Shown here piece by piece: positions 27,277 to 40,148 of a DNA stretch of 64,000 bases. A program made the position numbers and the translations under genes. Within the stretch, counting starts at the first letter, position 1; every line of letters begins with the position of its first letter. This stretch comes from Herbidospora cretacea (GTDB lineage Bacteria > Actinomycetota > Actinomycetes > Streptosporangiales > Streptosporangiaceae), in assembly GCF_001570605.1 (NCBI RefSeq), contig NZ_BBXG01000009.1, forward strand, positions 186,001-250,000, given 5' to 3'. The notes under the pieces are model-generated. The model ran no database searches. It saw nothing but the letters and a program-made list of their open reading frames with translations, and was not told where the DNA came from.

Positions 27277-28047
27277 ATGGACCTGCAGCTCATGGGCAAG
27301 CGCGCCCTGGTGACCGGATCGACCAGCGGTCTCGGCGAGGAGATCGCCAGGACCCTCGCCGCCGAGGGGGTGGCGGTGGTCGTCCACGGAAGGGACCGGG
27401 CGCGGGCCGACGCGGTCGCGAAGGAGATCGGCGGGACCGTCGCGCTCGGCGACCTGACCACCGACGAGGGGGCCGACGCCGTCCGCGAGGCGGCCGGGGA
27501 GGTCGACATCCTCGTCAACAACCTCGGGGTCTTCGATCCAACTCTGACCTGGGAGAACGTGACGGCCGACGACTGGAAGGACATCTACGACGTCAACGTC
27601 GTGACCTCGGTGCGGATGATCAAACGGTTCGTGCCGGGCATGAAGGAGCGCGGCTGGGGGCGGGTCATCCAGATCAGCAGCGTCCTCGGGGCCCAGCCGA
27701 CGGAGACCCAGCCCCACTACTCCGCGACCAACGCCGCCCGCGACAACCTGGCCGCCGCGCTGTCGCGCGAGCTGAAGGACTCGGGGGTCACCTCGAACGC
27801 GGTCGCGGCCGGCGGCATCCTCACGCCGTCGTCGAAGGTCCGGCTCCTCGAGATGGGGCGGCAGGCGGGCTGGGGTGAGACCTGGGAGGAGATGGCGGAG
27901 ACCGCGCAGCGCCGCCTCACCACGATGGTCGACGTCGGGCGGATCGGGCTGCCGGAGGAGTACGCCGACCTGGTGACCTTCCTGGCCAGCCCCAGGTCGG
28001 GGTACGTGACGGGGACGACGCTGCGGGTCGACGGCGGGTGGCACTAG
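27277..28047 (+). CDS. Short-chain dehydrogenase/reductase, catalytic Lys replaced by Asn
   Basis: A 256-aa NAD(P)-binding Rossmann enzyme. The coenzyme loop is TGSTSGLG near residue 15, NNLG stands in the usual NNAG place, and the catalytic Ser is in IQISSVLG. The active-site Tyr is in HYSATNAARDN, where the normal YxxxK lysine is an asparagine (TAC...AAC in the DNA). The C-terminal GGWH ends like many FabG-type proteins. GGAGG precedes the ATG by 8 nt. The divergent TetR gene and the operator between them point to induction by a small molecule, perhaps its substrate. With the lysine missing, catalysis may be weak, use another residue, or be absent. Confidence 0.88.
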   Translation: MDLQLMGKRALVTGSTSGLGEEIARTLAAEGVAVVVHGRDRARADAVAKEIGGTVALGDLTTDEGADAVREAAGEVDILVNNLGVFDPTLTWENVTADDWKDIYDVNVVTSVRMIKRFVPGMKERGWGRVIQISSVLGAQPTETQPHYSATNAARDNLAAALSRELKDSGVTSNAVAAGGILTPSSKVRLLEMGRQAGWGETWEEMAETAQRRLTTMVDVGRIGLPEEYADLVTFLASPRSGYVTGTTLRVDGGWH

Positions 28048-28086
28048 TCACTCCGGCGAAGAGCGGGCTTGACCGATAAACCCCTA

Positions 28087-28109
28087 TTTCCTACAGTTAA
28101 AGTAGGAAA
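28087..28109 (+). promoter_or_regulatory. Inverted repeat in front of the sulfur-poor ABC/monooxygenase operon
   Basis: TTTCCTAC (28087-28094) and GTAGGAAA (28102-28109) are perfect 8-bp arms around a 7-nt AT-rich centre, ending only 6 bp before the GTG start at 28116. The right arm overlaps the AGGAAAG ribosome-site region. This is the natural place for an operator that shuts the operon when preferred sulfur is present. Confidence 0.6.
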
Positions 28110-28115
28110 GCAGAG

Positions 28116-29750
28116 GTGATCTCCTTGCGCTCGCTCCGTGCCCCCCTTGCCGGTCTACTCCTGGTTCCGCTGCTCGCCGCGTGTGGCGGGACCGCGGCGC
28201 CCGCCGGGCAGCCGTCCACCCCCTCCCAGGGCGGTTCGCTCGTCTTCGGAGTCGACACCGAACCCCTCAACCTCGACCCCCACGCCAGCCCGCAGATCGT
28301 GACCAGCCTGTTCACCCGGCCGGTGCTCGACTCGCTGGTCACCCTCGACGACAAGGGCGGCATCGGCCCCTGGCTGGCGACCTCGTGGGACATCTCGGCC
28401 GACGGCCTGACCTACACGTTCAAGCTCCGCCCTGACGTGAAGTTCACCGACGGCACCCCCTTCGACGCCGAAGCGGTCAAGGTCAACCTCGACCACATCG
28501 TCGACCCGAAGACGAAGTCGCAGCTCGCGGCGTCGGCGTTCGGGCCTTACGAGAAGACGACCGTCGTCGACCCGCAGACGGTGGAGGTGAAATTCAAGCG
28601 GCCCTACTCCCCGTTCCTCGCGGCGCTGTCGACGGCGTTCTTCGGGATCCAGTCGCCCAAGCAGCTCGCCCTCGGGCCCGAGACGCTGGCCAAGAAGGTC
28701 GTCGGGACCGGGCCGTTCGTCATCGACGCGTTCGTGCCGCACCAGGGCATCACCTACCACCGCAACCCCGACTACAAGTGGCCCCCGGCGTGGGCGGGCC
28801 ACACCGGGCCCGCGCTGCTCGAACGGCTGGAGTACAAGGTCCTCATCGAGGACTCGGTGAGGCTCGGGGCGCTGACCAGCGGGCAGATCGACGCCATCGC
28901 GAGCGTGCCGCCGGTCAGCGTCAAGCAGGTCGAGGGCGACTCGCGGCTGACGATCGTGCGGCGGCAGGCGCCGGGCGGGAACTACAACTACTACCCGAAC
29001 ACCGCCAAGGGCGTCTTCACCGACCCGAAGGTGCGGCAGGCGTTCCGCGACGGCATCGACTTCGGCACCGTCGTGAACAAGCTCTACTTCGGGGCCTTCG
29101 AGCCCGCCAAGGGGCCGATCTCCCCGGTGACCGCCGGGTTCGACCCGGCCGTGCAGCGGACCTACGACGTCGCCAAGGCCAACCAGCTGCTCGACGAGGC
29201 CGGGTGGACCGGCCGCGACGCCGAGGGCTTCCGCACCAAGAACTTCGAGCGGCTGACCGTCCACTGGCCGTTCCAGAAGGCGACCGCCCGCGAACAGCGG
29301 GGCACGCTGTCGGAACAGGTGCAGGCCGAGGCCAAGAAGCTCGGGTTCGACGTGGTGTTCGACGACGTCACGCCGACCGACTTCCCGCCGAAGGCGATGG
29401 CCGGCGACTACGACCTCATCGACTTCAGCTGGCAGCGGGCCGAGGGCGACACGCTCCGCACCCTGTTCGGGATCTCCAACATCCCCAGCGAGAAGCTGTG
29501 GGGCCAGAACCTGGCCCGCTACGACGACGCCGAGGTCGACGCCTGGCTCGAAGAGGCCCTGGCCACCACCGACCTGGCCGCGCGGGCCGCCCTCTACGCC
29601 AAGGTCCAGCAGCGGGTCACCGCCGACGCGGCCGTCATCCCGGTCTACTCGTTCACCTATCTGCTGGGCGCGTCGAAGAGCGTCCGCGACATCACGTGGG
29701 AGCCGCAGGGCCACCCCACCTTCTACGACGCGTGGGTGTCGAAGGCATGA
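28116..29750 (+). CDS. ABC transporter substrate-binding lipoprotein (SBP family 5)
   Basis: A 544-aa extracytoplasmic lipoprotein that captures the ligand for the downstream permeases. It has a lipoprotein signal with lipobox LLAACGG (Cys about 23). The mature protein follows the peptide/nickel-binding family 5 pattern: FGVDTEPLNLDPHAS, DGLTYTFKLRPDVKFTDGTPF, GTGPFVIDAF and VRQAFRDGIDF. The start is GTG at 28116. By eye it has only one internal Met and one Cys, the lipobox Cys, which is remarkable for 544 residues and fits a sulfur-starvation protein. Its stop overlaps the permease start (ATGA at 29747). The ligand is inferred to be an organosulfur compound from its monooxygenase neighbours, not shown by sequence. 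Confidence 0.92.
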   Translation: MISLRSLRAPLAGLLLVPLLAACGGTAAPAGQPSTPSQGGSLVFGVDTEPLNLDPHASPQIVTSLFTRPVLDSLVTLDDKGGIGPWLATSWDISADGLTYTFKLRPDVKFTDGTPFDAEAVKVNLDHIVDPKTKSQLAASAFGPYEKTTVVDPQTVEVKFKRPYSPFLAALSTAFFGIQSPKQLALGPETLAKKVVGTGPFVIDAFVPHQGITYHRNPDYKWPPAWAGHTGPALLERLEYKVLIEDSVRLGALTSGQIDAIASVPPVSVKQVEGDSRLTIVRRQAPGGNYNYYPNTAKGVFTDPKVRQAFRDGIDFGTVVNKLYFGAFEPAKGPISPVTAGFDPAVQRTYDVAKANQLLDEAGWTGRDAEGFRTKNFERLTVHWPFQKATAREQRGTLSEQVQAEAKKLGFDVVFDDVTPTDFPPKAMAGDYDLIDFSWQRAEGDTLRTLFGISNIPSEKLWGQNLARYDDAEVDAWLEEALATTDLAARAALYAKVQQRVTADAAVIPVYSFTYLLGASKSVRDITWEPQGHPTFYDAWVSKA

Positions 29751-30658
29751 TCCGCCGCCTGCTGACCCGGCTCGGCGCCTCGGCGCTGGTGCTGTGGGGG
29801 GCGGTGACCGTCTCGTTCACCGCCCTGCACCTCACCCCCGGCAACGTCGTCGACGTGCTGATCGGCAGTTCGATCGTCACGCCGGAGGTCCGGGCGCAGA
29901 TCATCGCCGACTACGGGCTCGACCGGCCGCTACCGGTCCAGTACGTCACCTACCTGGGCCGGGTGGTCCGCGGCGACCTCGGGCAGTCCTACCAGCTCCA
30001 CGAGCCGGTGGTCACCGCGATCGGCGCGCAGCTCGGGCCCTCGCTCCAGCTCGCGGGGTCGGCGCTGCTGGTCGCGGTGACCGTCTCGGTGACGCTGGCC
30101 GTGCTGACCGCCCGGCGGTCGCGGTGGATCCAGGTGGTCGAGCTCGTCGGGGTGTCGATCCCGACGTTCTGGACGGCGATCCTGCTGCTCACCGTGTTCT
30201 CCTTCCAGCTCGGCTGGTTCCCGGCCGTCGGCGCCGACGGGTTCGCCGGGCTGGTGCTGCCGGTGATCGCGGTGTCGATCCCGATCACGACGCTGCTCAC
30301 CCAGATGATGCGCGAGAACCTGGAGCTCGTCCTGGAGGAGCCGTTCGTGCTGACCGCGCGGTCGCGCGGCCTCTCCGACCTGGGGGTACGGCTCCGCCAC
30401 GCGCTCCGGCACGTCCTCGTCCCCGCCGTCACGCTGCTCGGCTGGGTGATCGGGCTGCTGGTCGGCGCGATGGTCGCGGTCGAGCAGATCTTCTCCCGGC
30501 AGGGTCTCGGGCAGCTCACGCTGTCGGCCGTGACGGGCAAGGACCTGCCGGTCGTGATGGGCGTGGTGCTGTTCACGGCGGTCCTGTACGTCGTGGTCAA
30601 CATCGTCGTCGACCTGCTCTACCTGGTCATCGACCCGCGCCTGCGGAGCGCCGCGTGA
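29747..30658 (+). CDS. ABC transporter permease (DppB/OppB type)
   Basis: A 303-aa inner-membrane permease, first of the pair. It has an N-terminal transmembrane helix (LGASALVLWGAVTVSFTALHL), the family sequence HLTPGN and GLDRPLPVQYVTYLGRVVRGDLGQSY, then five further hydrophobic segments. The EAA-type coupling loop that contacts the ATPase reads LTARSRGLSDLGVRLRHALR. ATG at 29747 overlaps the binding-protein stop, and its own stop overlaps the next start (GTGA at 30655). No Cys and four internal Met, low for a membrane protein. Confidence 0.92.
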   Translation: MIRRLLTRLGASALVLWGAVTVSFTALHLTPGNVVDVLIGSSIVTPEVRAQIIADYGLDRPLPVQYVTYLGRVVRGDLGQSYQLHEPVVTAIGAQLGPSLQLAGSALLVAVTVSVTLAVLTARRSRWIQVVELVGVSIPTFWTAILLLTVFSFQLGWFPAVGADGFAGLVLPVIAVSIPITTLLTQMMRENLELVLEEPFVLTARSRGLSDLGVRLRHALRHVLVPAVTLLGWVIGLLVGAMVAVEQIFSRQGLGQLTLSAVTGKDLPVVMGVVLFTAVLYVVVNIVVDLLYLVIDPRLRSAA

Positions 30659-31449
30659 GACGGCACGCCGGCTTCACCCTCGCCACGGTCGTGCTGGCCC
30701 TGATGACCCTGGCCGCCCTCGCCCCCGGCCTGCTGACCGGCGGCGACCCCGGCGGCGCCGACGCGCTCAAGGCCCTGGAGGGGCCGAGCGCCGACCACTG
30801 GTTCGGCACCGACGCCAACGGCCGCGACGTCTTCACCCGCATCGTGTACGGCGCCGGGCCCTCCCTGCTGGCCGGTCTCGGCGCCACCGCCCTGGCCGTG
30901 GTCGCCGGCACCGCGCTCGGGCTGCTGGCCGCGCTCGGCGGGCGGGTGCTCGACGAACTGGTGATGCGGCTGGTCGAGGTCGTGCTGGCGCTGCCGACGC
31001 TGCTGCTGGCGCTGCTGGTCATCACGGTCACCGGGCCGGGCACGGTCAACGTGATCCTCGCCATCGCCCTCTACACCGCGCCCGGCTACGCCCGGCTGGT
31101 CCGGGCCCAGACCATGGTGATCAAGCGGGCCGGGTTCGTCGAGGCGGCCGTCTCGCTCGGGCTGAGCCGGGGCCGGATCATCTGGCGGCACGTGCTGCCC
31201 AACGCGTTCGAGCCGCTGCTGGTGCTGGCCACCATCGAGGTCGGCACCGCCCTCGTGGCCGCCGCCTCGCTCAGCTACCTCGGGCTCGGGCCGCAGCCGC
31301 CGGCGCCCGAATGGGGGGCGATGCTCTCGGCCGGGCGCGACTACTTCTCCGTCGCCTGGTGGATCGCCGTCTTCCCCGGCGTCGCGATCACCCTGACCGT
31401 CCTGTCCATCACCGTCGCCGGACGGCGTCTCCAGCGGAGGGTCGCATGA
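30655..31449 (+). CDS. ABC transporter permease (DppC/OppC type)
   Basis: A 264-aa second permease subunit. The opening RHAGFTLATVVLALMTLAALAP is the first membrane helix, followed by the DppC signature HWFGTDANGRDVFTRIVYGA. The coupling loop reads EAAVSLGLSRGRIIWRHVLPN. The C-terminal part has LSYLGLGPQPPAPEWGAML, typical of this family. GTG at 30655 sits in the GTGA overlap with the upstream gene, and its stop overlaps the ATPase start at 31446. It forms the membrane channel together with the product of 29747-30658. No Cys is present. Confidence 0.92.
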   Translation: MRRHAGFTLATVVLALMTLAALAPGLLTGGDPGGADALKALEGPSADHWFGTDANGRDVFTRIVYGAGPSLLAGLGATALAVVAGTALGLLAALGGRVLDELVMRLVEVVLALPTLLLALLVITVTGPGTVNVILAIALYTAPGYARLVRAQTMVIKRAGFVEAAVSLGLSRGRIIWRHVLPNAFEPLLVLATIEVGTALVAAASLSYLGLGPQPPAPEWGAMLSAGRDYFSVAWWIAVFPGVAITLTVLSITVAGRRLQRRVA

Positions 31450-33011
31450 GCGTCCCGGTGGTCGAGGTCACCGACCTGCGTGTCTCCTTCCCCGCGGTGG
31501 ACGCCGTCCGGGGCGTGTCGTTCGCCGTCCACCCCGGGGAGTGCGTGGCCATCGTCGGGGAGTCGGGGTCGGGCAAGAGCGTGACCGCGCGCACCCTGCT
31601 CGGGCTGACCGGCGAGGAGGCCACAGTCACCGCCGGGCGGCTGGCCGTCGACGGCGTGGACGCCTCGACGTTCAACGAACGGCAGTGGCGGTCCATCCGG
31701 GGCAGGCGCATCGGTTACGTGCTGCAGGACGCCCTGGTCTCGCTCGACGCGCTCCGCCCGGTGGGCAAGGAGATCGCCGAGGCGCTGCGGCTGCCCTGGC
31801 GCAGGGCCAGGCGGCGGGTGGTCGAACTCCTCGACGAGGTGGGCGTGCCCGAGCCGGAGGTCCGGGCGAGGCAGTATCCGCACGAACTGTCCGGCGGCCT
31901 GCGGCAGCGGGCCCTGATCGCCTCGGCCATCGCCTGCGGGCCGAAGCTGCTGATCGCCGACGAGCCGACCACCGCGCTCGACGTCACCGTGCAGGCGCAG
32001 ATCCTGCGGCTGCTGGCCGAGCGCAAACGCGGCGGTCAGGCGCTGCTGCTGATCAGCCACGACCTCGCGGTGGTGGCGGAACTGGCCGACCGGATCCTGG
32101 TCATGAAGGACGGCGTCGTCGTGGAGGACGGCCCGGCCGGACAGGTGCTCGGGGCGCCGGAGCATCCGTACACGAAGACCCTGCTCGCCGCCATCCCGGG
32201 ACCGGGCTCCCGGAGCACCCGCCCGGGTGAGGTGGTGATCCGGGCGACCGACCTGGTCAAGACGTTCGGGAGAAGGACCGCCGTCGACGGGGTCTCCTTC
32301 GAGCTGCGGGCCGGGCAGACGCTCGGCGTCGTGGGGGAGTCGGGGTCGGGCAAGACCACCACGGCCCGGCTGGTGCTCGGCCTGCTCAAGCCCGACCGGG
32401 GCTCGGTCGAGGTGGACCGGCGGCAGGTGCAGGTGGTCTACCAGGACCCGCTCAGCTCCTTCGACCCCCGGTTCACGGTGCGCCGCATCCTCGACGAGGC
32501 ACTGGAGGTCGGCGGGACGCCCCGGCGTGAACGCGGCCGACGCTCGGTCGAGCTGCTCGCCCAGGTCGGCCTCGACGCCGGGGTGCTCGACCGGCGGCCG
32601 CTGAAGCTGTCCGGCGGGCAGCGGCAGCGGGTGGCGATCGCCCGCGCGCTGGCCCCGCGTCCCCGCGTGATCGTCTGCGACGAGCCGGTGTCGGCGCTCG
32701 ACGTGTCGATCCAGGCCCAGGTGCTCGACCTGCTCACCGGGCTGCAGGCCGAACTCGGGGTCGCCTATCTGTTCATCTCGCACCACCTCGGGGTGGTGCA
32801 CCACGTCAGCGACCACGTGCTGGTGCTGAAGGACGGCCGGGCCGTCGAGTCGGGCGACGCGCACCGGATCTTCACGGCGCCGTCCGATCCGTACACCCGA
32901 GAACTGCTCGCAGCCGTGCCAGGAGGGCACTATGACCAAGCAGATCCATCTCGCCGCGCACTTCCCGGGCGTGAACAACACGACCGTCTGGTCCGACCCC
33001 CGGTCGGGTAG
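31446..33011 (+). CDS. Double ABC ATPase (fused DppD-DppF type)
   Basis: A 521-aa protein with two complete nucleotide-binding domains in one chain, so a single gene powers the importer. First domain: Walker A GESGSGKS, signature LSGGLRQRA, Walker B LLIADEPTTALD. Second: Walker A GESGSGKTT, signature LSGGQRQRV, Walker B VIVCDEPVSALD, H-loop ISHHLGVVHHVSD. After the normal family end near LLAAVPG it carries about 27 extra residues (HYDQADPSRRALP...) that overlap the next gene by 80 bp in another frame. That tail is probably not functional, being dictated by the downstream gene. Only one internal Met; Met is absent even from the Q-loop regions, where it is usually common. Confidence 0.92.
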   Translation: MSVPVVEVTDLRVSFPAVDAVRGVSFAVHPGECVAIVGESGSGKSVTARTLLGLTGEEATVTAGRLAVDGVDASTFNERQWRSIRGRRIGYVLQDALVSLDALRPVGKEIAEALRLPWRRARRRVVELLDEVGVPEPEVRARQYPHELSGGLRQRALIASAIACGPKLLIADEPTTALDVTVQAQILRLLAERKRGGQALLLISHDLAVVAELADRILVMKDGVVVEDGPAGQVLGAPEHPYTKTLLAAIPGPGSRSTRPGEVVIRATDLVKTFGRRTAVDGVSFELRAGQTLGVVGESGSGKTTTARLVLGLLKPDRGSVEVDRRQVQVVYQDPLSSFDPRFTVRRILDEALEVGGTPRRERGRRSVELLAQVGLDAGVLDRRPLKLSGGQRQRVAIARALAPRPRVIVCDEPVSALDVSIQAQVLDLLTGLQAELGVAYLFISHHLGVVHHVSDHVLVLKDGRAVESGDAHRIFTAPSDPYTRELLAAVPGGHYDQADPSRRALPGREQHDRLVRPPVG

Positions 33012-34254
33012 CCAGATCGACTTCGACTCCTTCAAACACTTGGCGCAGACGGCGGAACGCGGCAAGTTCGACTTCTTCTTCCTGGCCGAGGGCCTGCGGC
33101 TGCGCGAGATGAAGGGCCGCATCCACGACCTCGACGTCGTGGGCCGGCCCGAGTCGCTGACCGTGCTGTCGGCCCTGTCGGCGGTGACCACCCACCTGGG
33201 GCTCGCCGCGACGGTCAACTCCACCTTCAACGAGCCCTACGAGGTGGCCCGGCGGCTGGCCTCCCTCGACCACCTGTCGGGCGGCCGGGCCGCCTGGAAC
33301 GTCGTGACGAGCTGGGACGCCTTCACCGGCGAGAACTTCCGGCGCGGCGGCTACCTGGCCGAGGCCGACCGCTACACCCGCGCCAAGGAGTTCCTCCAGA
33401 CCGCCCGCGAACTGTGGGACTCGTGGGCGCCCGACGCGCTGACCAGGTCGGGCGGCGAGTTCGTCCGGCCGGACGGCATCGGCTTCTTCGAGCACCGGGG
33501 GCAGCACTTCGACATCCGGGGACGGTTCGACGTGCCCCGGCCGCCACAGGGAAACCCGGTGATCATCCAGGCCGGCGACTCCGAGGAGGGCCGCGAGTTC
33601 GCCGCCTCCTCCTCCGACGTCATCTTCAGCCGGCACAGCAAGCTGGAGGAGGGGCGCATCTTCTACCGCGACGTCAAGAGCCGCCTCGCCAAGTACGGCC
33701 GCGCCCCGGAGGACCTCAAGATCCTCCCGGCCGTCACCTACGTCCTGGGCGACACCCAGGAGGAGGCCGAGGAGCGGGCGGCCGAGATCCGCCGCGCCCA
33801 GGTCGGGCCGCAGACCGCGATCCTGTTCCTGGAGGCGATCTGGGGCCGCGACCTGTCCGGCTACGACCCCGACGGCCCCCTGCCCGACATCGAGCCCGAC
33901 CTGTCGACCGACGTCTCCAAGGGCCGGGCCCAGTTCCGCCGCGACCGGGCCGAGACGGCGGCCAAGTGGCGGGCGCTGGCCGAGGAGAAGAACCTGTCGA
34001 TCCGCGAGCTGGTCATCGAGACCGCCGCGCCGCAGACCTTCGTCGGCACCGCCGCCTCGGTCGCGGCGGAGATCGACACCTTCGTGCAGACCGACGCCGC
34101 CGACGGCTTCATCTTCGTGCCCCACATCACCCCGGGCGGCCTCGACGACCTGGTCGACAAGGTCGTGCCGCTGCTCCAGGAGAAGGGCGTCTTCCGCGCC
34201 GACTACACCGGCCCGACCCTGCGCCACCACCTCGGACTGAAGGAGCTCTCATGA
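32932..34254 (+). CDS. Flavin-dependent monooxygenase, NtaA/SnaA/DszA family
   Basis: A 440-aa luciferase-like (TIM barrel) enzyme using reduced FMN from a separate reductase and O2. Family signatures: AHFPGVNNTTVW near the start, [57 protein letters not shown], and GTAASVAAEIDTFVQ. Relatives oxidise nitrilotriacetate, sulfones or streptogramins; the context here favours carbon-sulfur bond cleavage. AGGAGG lies 5 nt before the ATG at 32932, inside the end of the ATPase gene. By eye the protein has no Cys and one internal Met. Its stop overlaps the next monooxygenase start (ATGA at 34251). No flavin reductase gene is linked. Confidence 0.92.
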   Translation: MTKQIHLAAHFPGVNNTTVWSDPRSGSQIDFDSFKHLAQTAERGKFDFFFLAEGLRLREMKGRIHDLDVVGRPESLTVLSALSAVTTHLGLAATVNSTFNEPYEVARRLASLDHLSGGRAAWNVVTSWDAFTGENFRRGGYLAEADRYTRAKEFLQTARELWDSWAPDALTRSGGEFVRPDGIGFFEHRGQHFDIRGRFDVPRPPQGNPVIIQAGDSEEGREFAASSSDVIFSRHSKLEEGRIFYRDVKSRLAKYGRAPEDLKILPAVTYVLGDTQEEAEERAAEIRRAQVGPQTAILFLEAIWGRDLSGYDPDGPLPDIEPDLSTDVSKGRAQFRRDRAETAAKWRALAEEKNLSIRELVIETAAPQTFVGTAASVAAEIDTFVQTDAADGFIFVPHITPGGLDDLVDKVVPLLQEKGVFRADYTGPTLRHHLGLKELS

Positions 34255-35375
34255 CTCTCCACCTCGCGGTCGCCCTCGACGGCGCCGGATGGCACCCGGC
34301 CGCCTGGCGGGCCGAGGGCGCCCAGCCCGACCGGCTGTTCACCGCCGGATACTGGGCCGACCTGGTCGTCGAGGCCGAACGCGGCCTGCTCGACTGGGTC
34401 ACCTTCGAAGACTCCCTCAGCCTCCAGTCGTCCCGGTACGACGGCCCCGACGGCCGCCACGACCAGGTGCGCGGCAAACTCGACGCGGTGCTGCTGGCCG
34501 CCGCCGTGGCCCCGCTGACCTCGAAGATCGGCCTGATCCCGACGACCAGCGTGACCCACACCGAGCCGTTCCACGTGGCGATCGGCATCGCCTCGCTCGA
34601 CCACGCCAGCAAGGGCCGGGCGGGCTGGCGTCCGCGCGTCTCCGGGCGGCCCGACGAGGCGGCCCACTTCGGCCGCCGCGAGTTCCCGCCGTTCGACCTG
34701 GCCAACCAGGGCTTCATCGACGACCTCTTCGAGGAGGCCGCCGACGCCGTCGAGGTGGTCCGCCGCCTGTGGGACAGCTGGGAGGACGACGCCGAGATCC
34801 GCGACGCCGCCACCGGGCGCTTCATCGACCGCGACCGGCTCCACTACATCGACTTCGAAGGCCGCTTCTTCTCGGTCAAGGGCCCGTCGATCACCCCGCG
34901 CCCGCCGCAGGGCCAGCCGCTCGTGACCTCTCTCGGGCACGGCCCCGGCCCGTACGCGTTCGCCGCCAGGAACGCCGACGTGCTCTACGTGACCCCGACC
35001 GACCGGGACGACGCGCGCCGGATCGCCGGGGAGGTCCGGGAGCTCAACCCCGGCCTGAAGGTCTTCGCCGACCTGGTCGTCTTCTTCGGTGACCACAAGG
35101 CCCGCCTCGACGAGCTCGACGGCGCGCCGCTGGAGTCGGACGCCCACGTCTTCGAGGGCACCCCCGCCCAACTCGCCGACCTGCTGCTCGACTGGGGTTT
35201 CGAGGGCTACCGGCTCCGCCCGGGGGTGCTGCCGCACGACCTGACCGCCATCACCCGGGGCCTGGTGCCCGAGCTCCAGGCGCGGGGGGCGTTCCGGACC
35301 GTGTACGAGACCCCGGACCTGCGCGGGCGACTGGGGCTGGCCCGCCCGGCCAGCCGGTACGCGAGGGTGTCGTGA
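34251..35375 (+). CDS. Flavin-dependent monooxygenase (luciferase-like)
   Basis: A 374-aa luciferase-like monooxygenase starting in the ATGA overlap with the previous gene. It reads as a single TIM barrel: LLDWVTFEDSLSLQSS, SKIGLIPTTSVTHTEPFHVA, LDHASKGRAGWRP, and FFSVKGPSITPRPPQGQPLV, the last matching the DszA-like segment of its neighbour. By eye it contains neither Cys nor internal Met, the most extreme case in the operon. The C-terminal region (GFEGYRLRPGVLPHDL) is the usual dimer-end of this family. It probably acts on the same imported compound as the other three monooxygenases, perhaps a different oxidation step or side-chain class. Confidence 0.9.
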   Translation: MTLHLAVALDGAGWHPAAWRAEGAQPDRLFTAGYWADLVVEAERGLLDWVTFEDSLSLQSSRYDGPDGRHDQVRGKLDAVLLAAAVAPLTSKIGLIPTTSVTHTEPFHVAIGIASLDHASKGRAGWRPRVSGRPDEAAHFGRREFPPFDLANQGFIDDLFEEAADAVEVVRRLWDSWEDDAEIRDAATGRFIDRDRLHYIDFEGRFFSVKGPSITPRPPQGQPLVTSLGHGPGPYAFAARNADVLYVTPTDRDDARRIAGEVRELNPGLKVFADLVVFFGDHKARLDELDGAPLESDAHVFEGTPAQLADLLLDWGFEGYRLRPGVLPHDLTAITRGLVPELQARGAFRTVYETPDLRGRLGLARPASRYARVS

Positions 35376-36406
35376 AGTTCCTCGCCCTCACCCTCGGCTT
35401 CCACCACGACCAGGGCAAGCCGGTCAACCAGCGCTTCCGCGAGATCGTCGAGAGCGCCGTGCGGGCCGAGGAGCTCGGCTTCGACGGCTTCGCCTTCGGG
35501 GAACGCCACGAACGGCCGTTCCTGTCGTCGTCGCCCACCGTGGTGCTCAGCCACATCGCGGCGAAGACGTCCACGATCCGGCTCTTCACCGCCGTCACCA
35601 CGCTCGCGCTGCTCGACCCGGTCAGGGCGTTCGAGGACTACTCGACCCTCGACCACCTGTCGGGCGGCCGTCTGGAACTGATCATCGGCAAGGGCAACGG
35701 CACCGCGCAGGCCGAGCTGTTCCACGTCACCGAGGCCGACCAGTGGGACCGCAACCGGGAGAGCTACGAGCTGTTCCGCCGCCTCTGGCGGGAGGACAAG
35801 GTGACCTGGGAGGGCAGGTTCCGCCCGGCGCTCGTCGACGCCGAGGTGCTGCCCCGCCCGTTCCAGCAGCCCGTCCGCGTCTGGCACGGCAGCGCCACCA
35901 GCCGTGAGTCGGTCGACCTGGCCGCCTTCTACGGCGACCCGCTGTTCTCCGCCAACGTCTCCAACCCGGTCGAGCCCTACGCCGAACTCGTCGCCCACTA
36001 CCGGGAACGCTGGGAGCACCACGGCCACGACCCGAAGGACGTCGTGGTCGGCGCGGGGACCGCCGGCTACTACAGCGCGCCCAAGTCGCAGGACGCGATC
36101 GAGACGTACCGGCCGGTCTTCGACGCGCGGCTGAGGTTCTTCGCCTCGCGCGGCCTCGACCCGGTCTTCCACAGCCTGGAGGACGCCATCGAGCGCAGCT
36201 CCATCCTGGTCGGCAGCCCCCAGCAGATCATCGACAAGGTCCACCGCTACCACGACCTGCTCGGCCACGAGGTGATGCACCTCTCGGCCGAGGCCGAGGG
36301 TCTCACCGAGGCGCAGCACCGCGACTCGCTCGAACTGTTCCAGGCCGAGATCGCGCCCGTACTCCGCACCGACATCCCCAGCAGACCCCTGGGAGGGCTC
36401 GCATGA
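35372..36406 (+). CDS. Flavin-dependent monooxygenase (luciferase-like)
   Basis: A 344-aa luciferase-like enzyme, GTG start at 35372 overlapping the previous stop (GTGA). The sequence [44 protein letters not shown] and [17 protein letters not shown] is characteristic of the bacterial-luciferase superfamily with the FMN-contacting strands intact. The C-terminal [22 protein letters not shown] places it among the LLM class with a substrate lid formed by that helix. No Cys and one internal Met by eye. It is translationally coupled on both sides. The specific substrate is not identifiable from sequence. Confidence 0.9.
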
Positions 36407-37527
36407 CCCGGCTGTCCATCCTCGACCTGGCCCCCATCGTCTCCGGCGGCACCGCGAGCCAGGCCCTCGCCAACACCCTCGACCTGGCACGCAAGGCGGA
36501 GGCGGCCGGCTACCACCGCTACTGGTTGGCCGAACACCACTTCACGCCGGGCGTGGCCAGCGCGGCCCCGGCCGTGCTGATCGGCGCGGTCGCCGCCGCG
36601 ACCAGCACGATCCGGGTGGGGTCCGGCGCGGTCCAGCTCGGCCACCAGACCGCACTCGGCGTCGTCGAGCAGTTCGGCACCCTCGACGCCCTCCATCCCG
36701 GCCGCATCGACCTCGGTCTGGGCCGGTCGGGACAGCGGGCCAAGGAATTCCGCGCCGCGGCCGACGCGCCCCCGCCCCCGCCGCAGGAGGCGCGGGTGGT
36801 CGACGGCCTGCTGATCCCCAAGCCGTTCTCGTTCGCCTCGATCGCCGACAAGTCGATCTTCACGCTCTGGGCGCAGCTCCTCCAGCAGCCCGGCGCGGAG
36901 TCACCCGACTTCGCCGAGCAGGTCGACGACATCAGGTCGTTCATCGCCGGGACCTACCGGTCGGCCGACGGCGTCGAGGCGCACGTCACCCCAGGTGAGG
37001 GAGCCGAGCTGGAGCTGTGGATCCTCGGCAGCAGCGGCGGCCAGAGCGCCCAGGCAGCGGCCGAACGCGGCCTGCCGTTCGCCGCCAACTACCACGTCAG
37101 CCCGTCGGCGGTGCTGGAGGCGGTGGAGGCCTACCGGGACGCCTTCAAGCCCTCGGAGCTGCACGCCAAGCCCCACGTCATGGTCTCCGCCGACGTCGTC
37201 GTCGCGGAGACCGAGGCTGAGGCGCGCCGGATCGCCGAGCCCTACGGCCTGTGGGTCCGCAGCATCCGCAGCGGCCGGGGCGCCATCCCCTTCCCCACCC
37301 CCGAGGAGGCGCTCGCCCACGAATGGTCGCCCGAGGACCGCGAGCTGATCGCCGACCGCCTCGACACCCAGTTCGTCGGCACGCCGGAGCAGGTCGTCGA
37401 GAAGCTGCGGACCCTCCGCGACGTGACCGGAGCCGACGAACTGCTGGTCACCACCATCACCCACGACCACGCCGACCGCGTCCGCTCGACCGAGCTCCTC
37501 GGCCGGGCCTGGAAGGAGCTCTCATGA
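36403..37527 (+). CDS. Flavin-dependent monooxygenase, MsnO8-like subfamily
   Basis: A 374-aa luciferase-like enzyme whose opening [26 protein letters not shown] and [25 protein letters not shown] matches the MsnO8/alkanal-type LLM oxidoreductases. Other landmarks are [38 protein letters not shown] and [26 protein letters not shown] at 36403 overlaps the previous stop, and its stop overlaps the next gene (ATGA at 37524). No Cys and one internal Met. It is the fourth monooxygenase in the operon, so the pathway either needs several oxidations or has broad substrate coverage. Confidence 0.9.
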
Positions 37528-38237
37528 CCACACGTGAGGACGAAGTGCGCGAACTGCTCACCCTCACCGGCACGACCTGGATCGACGGCGACACCGTCGT
37601 CCCCCACGTGCCGGGGGTGTGGACCCCGGCCGGCGGCGGCGTGGAACTGAAGGCAGGCCAGGACGACGGCCTGACCATCGACGGCGAACCGGTCACCGCC
37701 CCCGTCGTCATCACCCCCGACGTGTCCGGCCTTCGCTACGGCCGCGTCAAGATCCAGGCCCTCATCCGCGACGGCCTCCCGGTGATCCGCACCTGGGACC
37801 CCGACGCCGCGACCCTGCGCGCCTTCCAGGGCATCGACTCCTACCCCCACGACCCGGCGTGGATCCGCCCGGCCGTCTTCCGCCCCTACGGCGAGACCCG
37901 CCCCGAGACCGTACCCACCGCCGACGGCCGCGAACGCGACCTCCTGCTGGTCGGCGACGTCATCGTCGACCTCCCCGGCGGCACCCGCACCCTGGCCGTC
38001 ACCGAGACCCCCAGCGGCCTGTCCGCCCAGTTCGGCGACCTGACCAACGGCGAGGAGACCTTCCGCTTCCGCACCCTGCCCCTGCCCGCCCCCGACCCGG
38101 AGGGACGCCTGGAGGCCGACTTCAACGCGGCCCACCTCCCCCCGTGCGCCCTGACCGACCACTTCCTCTGCTTCCTGCCCCCACCGGGCAACCGCCTGGA
38201 CGTGAGGGTGACAGCGGGCGAGAGACGACTCATCTGA
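37524..38237 (+). CDS. DUF1684 family protein
   Basis: A 237-aa protein, last of the nine-gene operon, starting in the ATGA overlap. It belongs to the DUF1684 family: the conserved end [29 protein letters not shown] matches that family's DFNxAxxPPCAx...CxLPPPxNRL pattern, and [21 protein letters not shown] the middle part. Biochemical function is not established. It contains two Cys, both in the conserved motif, and no internal Met, so the Cys are probably important. It frequently travels with oxidoreductases. Its position suggests a role in the last handling step of the imported compound. No signal peptide. Confidence 0.85.
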
Positions 38238-38387
38238 ATCGGCCGCGCGAAGGCGTGGGCGGTCCCGTCGTGAAGAACTTCCTTTACGGCTCCGCCCACT
38301 CTCAGGCCAGGGCGACCTCTGCCAAGCCGGGCAGTGAACGGGATGGCGGCAAGGTGCCGACATGAGATGCCCTTGATTCGCGATGAA

Positions 38388-40148
38388 TCAGAAGAGAGTT
38401 TCTTCCTCGCCGGTCGGCGGCTTCGCTTTTAGAGTCGTTTTCGCCCGGATCTTTTTCGTGGGAAAGGCGGGTCCCGGGCCATAACGAACAGCGGTTCCTC
38501 GTTTCTGCTCGGAAGTGCGCGTGATGATCTCCCGGCCAACCAGGTCTCGCAGAATGTCGCGAGCAGCGTAGACATCCAGATCGAAGAGCCGCTGGATTGT
38601 CCTGCTGTTCACCTCCCCGTAGTCCTGCACGTGTTCGATGACTTTACGGTCGATCTCATCTATTGCTCTGCTGTGATAGGAGACGGCCGAGCCGAGCCGA
38701 GAGACGACCTCCCCGCGTAGGCGATAGGAAGGGAAGGTCCGGCGCATCGTGCCGCGGGTAGGTTCCAGCATGTTGACAGGGCTCGTCGAAAGACGAAGGA
38801 GACTGGCTTGCGCCTCCTCTGCCGAGCGTTGAATGATTGGGGCGATCTCATTGGCGTCGATCGTTCGCTTGCGGCAGAGCGCTCGGATTATCAGCAGCGC
38901 ATCGGTGTCCTCGCGTTCCTCGATGGGAAGCGTGGCCAGAAAACGCGCGATCTTCGTGTTGGGTGGTTGCCCACGGAACGCGACGGTGACCTGATCCTGG
39001 TCTTCTGTGATGATGGGGGCGTCTCGGCCAGACTTGATCATCTCCCGGAACATGCGGTCAACGCCCTGTCCCACCTCTTCTGCAAGCCCGAGAAGCCGAA
39101 ATGCCGCAGCCAGCGTGGGATATCTCGCCCGGGATCCGATGGTCAGAATGTTGTTGACCGTGATTCCGTTCACCAGTGGCCCTGGTGACGTTATGCGGAG
39201 ATACTCGGCCGAGTGATCGACGTTGATCGATGACCGCAATCGCCAGTCGCCGTGTATGAAAGCGTTGGCGATGGCCTCTCGAATTGCCGCCGAAGGATAG
39301 TCCTCAATCTGGATCTGCTGGCCATCGGCCAAGGTGACAGGGGTGATTCCCTGCCGCGATCCAATGGACTGAAGTACCTCCTCAAAGGCCAGCACCGCTG
39401 GTGACTGCAAGCGGATGATCGCATCCGCTTCTCCTGCCTGTGTCCGACGGTGCTGGTAGACGACAAGATCGTGAGCGGTTGATGACGCGCTTTCGCAGAG
39501 CAGGATCTCCCCGGCCCGGTTCAGCGAACCGTCATCCGCGATGACTTTCAGGACTCGGAGGAGGTCGAGGTCGGACAGGCGGCCATATGACTGGCGTGCC
39601 GCGTCCGAGGAATATTGGAGGAGGCGTCGGCAATATCGAATGGCGAACGGGTCGACGTCTTCCGTCGTGCGTCCGCTGGGAGTCGACGACCAATCGATTC
39701 CGCGCCGTTCTTCAGTGAGACGACTGATGTCCAATGGACGCATCGGAACGCACTGATCGTTGATGCGATGGTAGGCGTAACCCTTGGTCGTGGAGTAGAC
39801 GTCGAGGCCGGCGGGGACGGAGATCACCAGCAATCTCGCACCCGCGAAATCCACTGAGGAGATCTCTACCAGCAGGTTGGGACTCGTCAGTTGATGGATT
39901 CTTCCTCGCAGTACCACCGGGTCGATGGCACAACCTACGAACGCGTCCTGTCCCGCCTTGGAGTCGACGACCCCGACGATGATGAAGCCGCCACTCGCAT
40001 TGGCGAAGCAGACCGCAGCCTCGGTCAGATCGCTGCAGGCCTCCTTGAAGTCGGGCTTCGCCTCCTTGAAGTCCAGCCTCTCGTTCTCGCACTTACGCGC
40101 GATGGTGCCCGACTGGACAGCCTTCAGCGCCTGGAGAACGAGGTCCAT
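38388..40148 (-). CDS. Schlafen/AlbA_2-type ATP-binding protein, possible transferred defence or regulatory gene
   Basis: A 586-aa protein. Residues ~20-140 are an AlbA_2 (Schlafen-type) domain: NERLDFKEAKPDFKEACSDL, AVCFANASGGFIIVGVVD; note the internal duplication DFKEA-KP-DFKEA. Residues ~285-390 form the divergent ATP-binding domain (IREAIANAFIHGDWRLRSS, LRITSPGPLVNGI, EEVGQGVDRMF). The C-terminal ~100 residues look like a winged helix (AIDEIDRKVIEHVQDYGEVNSRTIQRLF), ending in a basic tail. ATG at 40148 with AAAGGAGG 9 nt upstream. Its codon use is visibly less GC-rich than every neighbour, suggesting horizontal acquisition. Such proteins act as transcription regulators or in phage defence; I cannot decide between them. 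Confidence 0.85.
   Translation of the reverse strand: MDLVLQALKAVQSGTIARKCENERLDFKEAKPDFKEACSDLTEAAVCFANASGGFIIVGVVDSKAGQDAFVGCAIDPVVLRGRIHQLTSPNLLVEISSVDFAGARLLVISVPAGLDVYSTTKGYAYHRINDQCVPMRPLDISRLTEERRGIDWSSTPSGRTTEDVDPFAIRYCRRLLQYSSDAARQSYGRLSDLDLLRVLKVIADDGSLNRAGEILLCESASSTAHDLVVYQHRRTQAGEADAIIRLQSPAVLAFEEVLQSIGSRQGITPVTLADGQQIQIEDYPSAAIREAIANAFIHGDWRLRSSINVDHSAEYLRITSPGPLVNGITVNNILTIGSRARYPTLAAAFRLLGLAEEVGQGVDRMFREMIKSGRDAPIITEDQDQVTVAFRGQPPNTKIARFLATLPIEEREDTDALLIIRALCRKRTIDANEIAPIIQRSAEEAQASLLRLSTSPVNMLEPTRGTMRRTFPSYRLRGEVVSRLGSAVSYHSRAIDEIDRKVIEHVQDYGEVNSRTIQRLFDLDVYAARDILRDLVGREIITRTSEQKRGTAVRYGPGPAFPTKKIRAKTTLKAKPPTGEEETLF

Follow-up and report, generated by a model that had tools for sequence, protein, structure and literature searches.

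In Bacillus subtilis, the CmoO/CmoJ (ytm) and YxeK (yxe/scm) salvage systems combine an importer with C-S-cleaving flavin mononucleotide (FMN)-dependent monooxygenases to recover cysteine, and excerpts of PMC10863075 and PMC9706529 give C-S cleavage by CmoJ and YxeK as established. According to an excerpt of PMC9239247, CymR with CysK represses the ytmI operon in B. subtilis and Listeria, in B. subtilis via the activator YtlI. It is equally established that sulfur-acquisition proteins are poor in cysteine (Cys) and methionine (Met); a passage of PMC7661421 cites this as known and describes two FMN monooxygenases made by Gordonia NB4-1Y on sulfonate, with 0.2% and 0.67% Met+Cys. For Rhodococcus IGTS8, passages of PMC8557817 report more TauD, SsuD, TcyA/TcyC, sarcosine oxidase, sulfotransferase, and an Rrf2/CymR protein on dibenzothiophene than on sulfate; they state that this strain has no homologue of CysB, Cbl, CmbR, or McbR and propose the Rrf2/CymR protein as global sulfur regulator. 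Here, we analyzed a nine-gene operon at positions 28116-38237 of a 64,000-nucleotide (nt) stretch of the Herbidospora cretacea genome (contig NZ_BBXG01000009.1), referred to below as the window.

The operon very probably serves under sulfur limitation, with probable repression by an Rrf2-family (CymR-like) protein, and would import an organosulfur compound and cleave C-S bonds via FMN monooxygenases. As in the B. subtilis systems, an importer stands together with monooxygenases of the C-S-cleaving kind, here predicted from the genes. In contrast to those systems, it has no GNAT or deacetylase, and it carries an SBP_bac_5 importer, four luciferase-like monooxygenases (LLMs) that include an LLM1/LLM2 pair, a DUF1684 protein, and a palindrome in the promoter. 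It shares sulfur-poor acquisition enzymes with the Gordonia and Rhodococcus strains (excerpts of PMC7661421 and PMC8557817); this operon, its operator, and its Rrf2 link are absent from the passages of these two papers that were compared, and a search of titles and abstract openings in the open-licence PMC literature found neither this operon nor this operator or its link to Rrf2 genes in these genera. A further relative is the ATP-binding cassette (ABC)-LLM system of TIGR04028 and TIGR04027 (KPN_01854/KPN_01858). TIGR04028 is the best NCBIfam match of the binding protein, and the LLM model TIGR04027 bears the neighbouring KPN number, but the binding protein stays under the TIGR04028 cut-off (242.5 versus 468.5 bits). 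The operon comprises the following features.

28069..28097, + strand: promoter TTGACC - 17 nt - TACAGT, the sole sigma-70-like match
28088..28108, no strand assigned: predicted operator palindrome TTCCTAC-AGTTAAA-GTAGGAA, overlying the -10 element
28116..29750, + strand: lipoprotein solute-binding protein, SBP_bac_5 (Pfam, 282 bits; best NCBIfam match TIGR04028, below cut-off)
29747..30658, + strand: ABC permease 1, Opp/Nik type (Pfam/NCBIfam scans)
30655..31449, + strand: ABC permease 2 (Pfam/NCBIfam scans)
31446..33011, + strand: fused double ABC ATPase (two ABC_tran and two oligo_HPY stretches, Pfam)
32932..34254, + strand: LLM1, NtaA/DmoA-family FMN monooxygenase, CmoJ/YxeK/DszA-like (TIGR03860, 426 bits)
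34251..35375, + strand: LLM2, short divergent partner of LLM1 without Cys or internal Met (sequence comparison with LLM1)
35372..36406, + strand: LLM3, LLM of the CE1758/Atu2307 type (TIGR04036, 253 bits, below cut-off; PDB 2i7g)
36403..37527, + strand: LLM4, MsnO8-family LLM (TIGR03558, 343 bits, cut-off 167; PDB 4us5)
37524..38237, + strand: DUF1684 protein, at the end of the operon (PF07920, 114 bits; relatives in other sulfur-poor clusters)

Methionine and cysteine content of the operon and its relatives

The nine coupled genes encode 3,401 residues in total, and all nine were reproduced by a self-trained gene caller. The original prediction had counted, by eye, 13 internal Met and 6 Cys in the nine proteins; 3 internal Met and no Cys in the 1,532 residues of the four LLMs, with neither in LLM2; 1 internal Met and 1 Cys in the binding protein; and 6 internal Met in the neighbouring short-chain dehydrogenase/reductase (SDR). 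Recounting returned the same numbers throughout. The background consisted of the window and 40 stretches of 20 kb from elsewhere in this genome, together 864 kb out of 8.28 Mb, in which our own gene calls gave 703 other genes with 1.56% Met, 0.76% Cys, and a mean of 2.33% Met+Cys. The operon contained 0.56% Met+Cys, that is, 19 residues versus about 79 expected. It had the lowest value among 319 overlapping runs that each spanned 3,300 residues or more, those without operon genes averaging 2.34% (standard deviation, 0.42). When nine genes were drawn at random 200,000 times from the 487 genes of at least 200 residues, no draw was as low (minimum, 1.09%). This ranking, run on a tenth of the genome, favours the sulfur-starvation reading put forward earlier.

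The depletion was specific with respect to both residue and locus. Relative to background, Met stood at 0.25 and Cys at 0.23, and the other residues ranged from 0.87 to 1.38 except for Asn, the next lowest at 0.55. Of 34 LLM matches in the genome, 30 came with a locus, and among the genes at these 30 loci LLM1 to LLM4 ranked 1 to 4 (0-0.29% Met+Cys; next gene, 0.82%; exact Mann-Whitney P = 3.6e-5). One of the remaining four matches is the second part of LLM4 itself. The binding protein (0.37%) was second of 13 SBP_bac_5 genes, another having 0.36%. A second SBP_bac_5 system (C18; L196 5979-11179) with an equally Met/Cys-poor binding protein lies downstream of genes resembling polyketide synthase (PKS) genes by eye; it was not counted as support.

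Another depleted locus of the same genome is an ssu-like operon (C17:145.6-149.2 kb; 9 Met+Cys in 1,192 residues, 0.76%). It likewise combines an ABC importer with an LLM, here SsuD-like (421.6 bits, cut-off 518), and has a one-mismatch copy of the palindrome upstream, but it differs in transporter class and LLM subfamily. A second LLM-ABC cluster (C17:65.8-69.4 kb) had 1.52% Met+Cys and lends no support to the depletion reading.

The depletion extends to other genomes. Relatives of LLM2 were matched at E <= 0.001 in 201 of 297 genomes of the order, paralogues included. At 38 loci with LLM2 orthologues (LLM2 identity of 48% and up; at some loci the nine genes are reduced to LLM1, LLM2, and LLM4 or even less), genes of the operon families had 0.00-0.91% Met+Cys versus 0.96-3.02% in the flanks, and they were poorer than their own flank in every case (38/38). 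A scan of genome contigs with the LLM2 alignment confirmed at least 591 relatives, and 80 were kept, 79 of them actinobacterial by title and one labelled Melainabacteria; genomes of the same genus are not independent, and part of these 80 loci repeats genomes of loci taken earlier. Nineteen gene families, taken purely by their recurrence in at least 8 of the 80 loci, comprised 475 genes, whose median Met+Cys was 0.40% versus 2.06% for the other 854 genes. With the LLM1-4 families removed, 243 genes with a median of 0.77% remained. One of the 19 families, resembling glutathione S-transferase (GST), was ordinary at 2.38%. LLM1 and LLM2 were adjacent and co-oriented in 72 of the 80 loci; one gene stood between them in 5, and one partner was unassigned in 3.

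Judged from their Pfam and NCBIfam matches, the recurrent neighbours elsewhere are mostly sulfur-poor, and many are of sulfur-acquisition types. Redox proteins include a flavin reductase, an SsuE-like protein, FMN_red, TauD, a DAO oxidoreductase, an FAD-NAD(P) protein, and an SsuD-like LLM. Transport is represented by SBP_bac_3, an amino-acid-type permease, and a TcyN-like ATPase (323.7 bits, below the cut-off of 406), and these cystine-type ABC families occur in 20-26 of the 80 loci. Other neighbours are GNATs (two families beside the LLM set, each in 11 of the 80 loci), a SufS-like class V aminotransferase, a cysteine-dioxygenase-like protein, rhodanese, DUF1684, sulfotransferase, and the GST-like protein.

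Met and Cys would have been stripped from these proteins by selection, because the proteins must be made while both amino acids are scarce. The operon is a clean case of such proteome economy: over about 3,400 residues, Met and Cys reach a quarter of their usual share, and this is kept in many actinobacteria. A low Met/Cys content may therefore serve as a guide to sulfur-scavenging genes such as those for DUF1684 and LLM2.

Operator palindrome and candidate regulator

The promoter at 28069..28097 is the only sigma-70-like match within 27950-38450 (0.2 expected). The palindrome that overlies its -10 element sits between the SDR gene and the binding-protein gene. In 7 aligned Herbidospora sequences, TTGAC, TACAnT, and the palindrome are retained, and the palindrome stands upstream of the operon in 7/7 Herbidospora genomes. 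Within the 8.28-Mb genome, the exact palindrome occurs twice, at the operon and before a TauE/SafE gene (C1), versus 0 copies of the reversed control. The relaxed form WWCCTAN9TAGGWW gave 4, 8, 2, and 2 sites in four genomes (reversed control, 0, 1, 0, and 0). Its two extra sites in H. cretacea precede a second TauE/SafE gene and the gene of an FAD-NAD(P) protein, with none for the control.

Operator-like sites were also found across the cluster relatives. The exact core CCTACN7GTAGG occurred 16 times in 150 upstream stretches of cluster genes and 0 times for each of 19 permuted arms. In the examined loci, 50 of 51 CCTAN9TAGG sites were intergenic by our gene calls, and about 17% of the sampled H. 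cretacea sequence is intergenic. Of 36 distances from a site to the start codon of a sulfur-poor first gene, 26 were below 50 nt. A scan of 250 genomes of the family, which is less biased than a set of 59 sites from loci picked for the cluster, found TWCCTACTN5AGTAGGWA in 15 genomes, once each, with the reversed control in one genome among the matches listed. Behind these 15 sites were 6 TauE/SafE genes, 2 LLM1 genes, and 1 TauD gene (the TauD and one TauE called by Pfam, the others by sequence start), and the first gene had at most 1.0% Met+Cys at 9 of the 15 sites versus 61 of 655 background genes. Further sites precede an ABC permease resembling SsuC in Microbispora, a carbonic anhydrase and a sulfotransferase in Streptosporangium, and an SsuD-like LLM in Nonomuraea, and in Streptosporangium a similar LLM begins about 430 nt away from one; the Ssu names were assigned by eye.

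The genes found around the operator make a CymR-like member of the Rrf2 family the most likely repressor. An Rrf2 gene follows in 3 of the 6 TauE/SafE matches (Pfam Rrf2 for L302 and L303). The closest Rrf2 relative in H. cretacea, 67% identical to the query, lies directly behind the exact-palindrome TauE gene at C1. A second Rrf2 gene (C2), with 59-61% identity to the query, is present in all 7 Herbidospora genomes; in the loci read it encodes no internal Met or Cys, and it is the last gene of an ABC operon that is Ssu-like by eye. In 5/5 Herbidospora loci read (G000, G048, G029, G092, and G100), the first gene of this operon, as called, is preceded at a distance of 16 nt by an AT-rich site with one mismatch, and no other such site occurs within the 10 kb; the 864-kb sample contains 4 such sites, 2 of them wholly intergenic. 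The binding protein of the second-Rrf2 operon has 0.56% Met+Cys in H. cretacea. The Rrf2 domain scored 102.7 bits in the L302 homologue, and CymR was the best named NCBIfam equivalog of the L303 homologue scanned. With 1 Cys in the C1 protein (67% identical) and 0 in the C2 protein, neither holds the cysteine triad that is a feature of IscR and NsrR. With this operator, and with two Rrf2 operons that begin with a site, the Rrf2/CymR candidate becomes directly testable in a lineage related to Rhodococcus.

A broader view is about evenly balanced. Judged from these sites, Streptosporangiaceae and related actinobacteria may possess a sulfur-starvation regulon repressed by Rrf2 proteins, one paralogue of which lacks internal Met and Cys, through TTCCTAC-N7-GTAGGAA. 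Its members would be mostly sulfur-poor and would include this operon, TauE/SafE, TauD, Ssu-like importers, sulfotransferase, carbonic anhydrase, and the repressor operons, together with a heteromeric C-S-cleaving LLM1/LLM2 monooxygenase of a new subfamily.

Three side observations concern operator-like sequences. A sulfotransferase gene of the H. cretacea genome (L104 535-1485) has a two-mismatch palindrome just upstream, and its relatives at L293 (Streptosporangium) and L308 adjoin good sites. Carbonic anhydrase genes with ordinary Met/Cys lie behind operator-like sites in two genomes (L221 and L115; Pfam for the copy in the L221 genome). The Streptomyces loci L207, L215, L227, L231, L237, and L248 share a conserved variant, CCTAGTGAAnnGGTAGG, upstream of a GST-like gene whose Met/Cys content is ordinary (Pfam in L215).

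Proposed pathway and alternative explanations

Under sulfur sufficiency, an Rrf2-family repressor bound to the palindrome over the -10 element would keep the nine genes off, and low cysteine would derepress them. A small organosulfur compound would then enter through the lipoprotein, the two permeases, and the fused ATPase. The FMN monooxygenases would oxygenate its sulfur and cleave the C-S bond oxidatively, and the freed thiol or sulfite would enter cysteine synthesis. LLM4 is a candidate for the S-oxygenation, and the C-S cleavage may fall to LLM1 together with LLM2, which usually stands beside it. Reduced FMN (FMNH2) would come from a reductase encoded elsewhere, because the operon has none. 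The dedicated organosulfur scavenging system originally predicted is supported by the composition, the sulfur-type neighbours, the relatives of the operator, and the depleted ssu-like operon.

The enzyme assignments bear on the substrate. LLM1 passes the TIGR03860 (NtaA/DmoA) cut-off (426 versus 279.7 bits), and LLM2 falls short of it at 245 bits. The closest PDB relative of LLM1 is YtnJ (306 bits), presumably the protein now named CmoJ, followed by DszA at 275 bits. The earlier label of a DszA-like LLM thus stands as far as LLM1 exceeds the family cut-off and has DszA as a close relative, but YtnJ is nearer than DszA. SsuD and SfnG were excluded as identities of LLM1 by their equivalog cut-offs (46/518 and 83/383 bits). 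LLM2 shares about 30% identity with LLM1 and is missing an inner segment. Bacterial luciferase has unequal subunits, and a short LLM2 beside a longer LLM1 recalls that arrangement.

Two kinds of substrate were weighed, and an S-substituted cysteine or thioether is favoured. In this specific form of the scavenging reading, which has about an even chance of being correct, LLM4, as a putative CmoO-type sulfoxidase, would convert a thioether (an S-substituted cysteine, a conjugate, or a peptide) to the sulfoxide, and CmoJ/YxeK-like LLM1/LLM2 would cut the C-S bond to give the thiol. YtnJ as the nearest solved relative of LLM1 points this way, as does the presence of the same LLM set beside GNATs and SBP_bac_3/TcyN-like cystine-type ABC genes in other genera, with the order GNAT-LLM2-LLM4-LLM1 in 3 mycobacterial loci. 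N-acetylated S-substituted cysteines are the substrates of CmoO/CmoJ and YxeK in the excerpts of PMC10863075 and PMC9706529. However, the window operon holds no GNAT or deacetylase, and its importer is of the SBP_bac_5 type and not the amino-acid type SBP_bac_3. A sulfonate or sulfone, cleaved to sulfite in the manner of SsuD, SfnG, or DszA, is a possible but less probable substrate. DszA is among the close solved relatives of LLM1, related operators stand before TauE/SafE, TauD, and Ssu-like genes, and the Gordonia monooxygenases made on fluorotelomer sulfonate are also sulfur-poor (excerpt of PMC7661421). Yet the scores of LLM1 lie far under the SsuD and SfnG cut-offs, and the genome has a separate ssu-like operon.

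The composition and the operator could also have other origins. It is very improbable that low Met/Cys has nothing to do with sulfur and instead reflects the base composition, the protein family, or a resistance of FMN monooxygenases to oxidation. Oxidation resistance is conceivable for LLMs, and the poorest run without operon genes, PKS-like by eye, reaches 0.84% in the same genome. However, the 26 other LLMs of the genome have 0.82-3.48% Met+Cys; the binding protein, the ATPase, and the DUF1684 protein are low as well; the fourfold drop is restricted to Met and Cys; and the shared operator and many of the neighbours are sulfur-related. A family or base-composition effect was rejected on the run ranking, the ranks within the LLM family, and the residue specificity. 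That the operator belongs to another regulator, with the Rrf2 genes as bystanders, is unlikely, though less so. Next to TauE at C1 stands a divergently oriented MarR-like gene (family by eye), and LysR-type sites follow a T-N11-A rule with which CTAC-N7-GTAG is compatible. On the other side, two Rrf2 paralogues lie in two site-headed operons, one of them in five Herbidospora loci read, and the short distances of most sites from start codons (26/36) are repressor-like.

Several observations weigh against the reading of an Rrf2-repressed scavenging operon. Low Met/Cys alone is not diagnostic, because some sulfur-poor neighbours (singletons) have no sulfur link and because of the PKS-like run. 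The two permeases rank 8 and 11 of the 30 BPD_transp_1 genes examined (109 matches) and therefore are not exceptional for their family. A Pfam scan of the nine operon genes found no GNAT, deacetylase, or flavin reductase. As for the operator, the exact TauE site occurs in 1/7 Herbidospora genomes, and in the H. cretacea genome neither the two-mismatch palindrome (6 sites versus 7 for the reversed control) nor the bare core CCTACN7GTAGG (5 versus 4) is in excess. Herbidospora accounts for 6 of the 16 core matches, and another 4 come from two Microbispora regions, each counted once per side; in the 150 upstream stretches, no exact core stands before the examined Mycobacterium or Streptomyces clusters, and therefore the regulator is not universal. 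The motif TWCCTACTN5AGTAGGWA does not match the operon's own site, and 6 of its 15 sites have no clear sulfur gene behind them. In the cluster-picked set, 23 of 59 sites stand before genes with more than 1.0% Met+Cys. Of the 8 strict sites in Streptosporangium, 7 were examined; 4 of these adjoin a sulfur-type gene, and 3 have none that is clear. In the second-Rrf2 operon of H. cretacea, the ATPase (3.08%) and permease (1.76%) are not depleted to the level of their binding protein, and the L303 homologue misses the NF047409 (CymR) cut-off (72.9 versus 195 bits).

Boundaries and reading frames of the operon

The SDR gene at 27277-28047 was excluded as an operon member; it has an ordinary Met content and sits upstream of the operator. 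No close copy stands at the remaining loci compared, and the SDR is retained next to the operon in six other Herbidospora loci. Within the operon, the frames of the ATPase and LLM1 share 80 nt (32932-33011). The binding protein may start at TTG 28125, behind the Shine-Dalgarno sequence GAGGTGA, instead of GTG 28116. In the alignment, the start codon at 28125 is GTG in six other Herbidospora sequences and TTG here.

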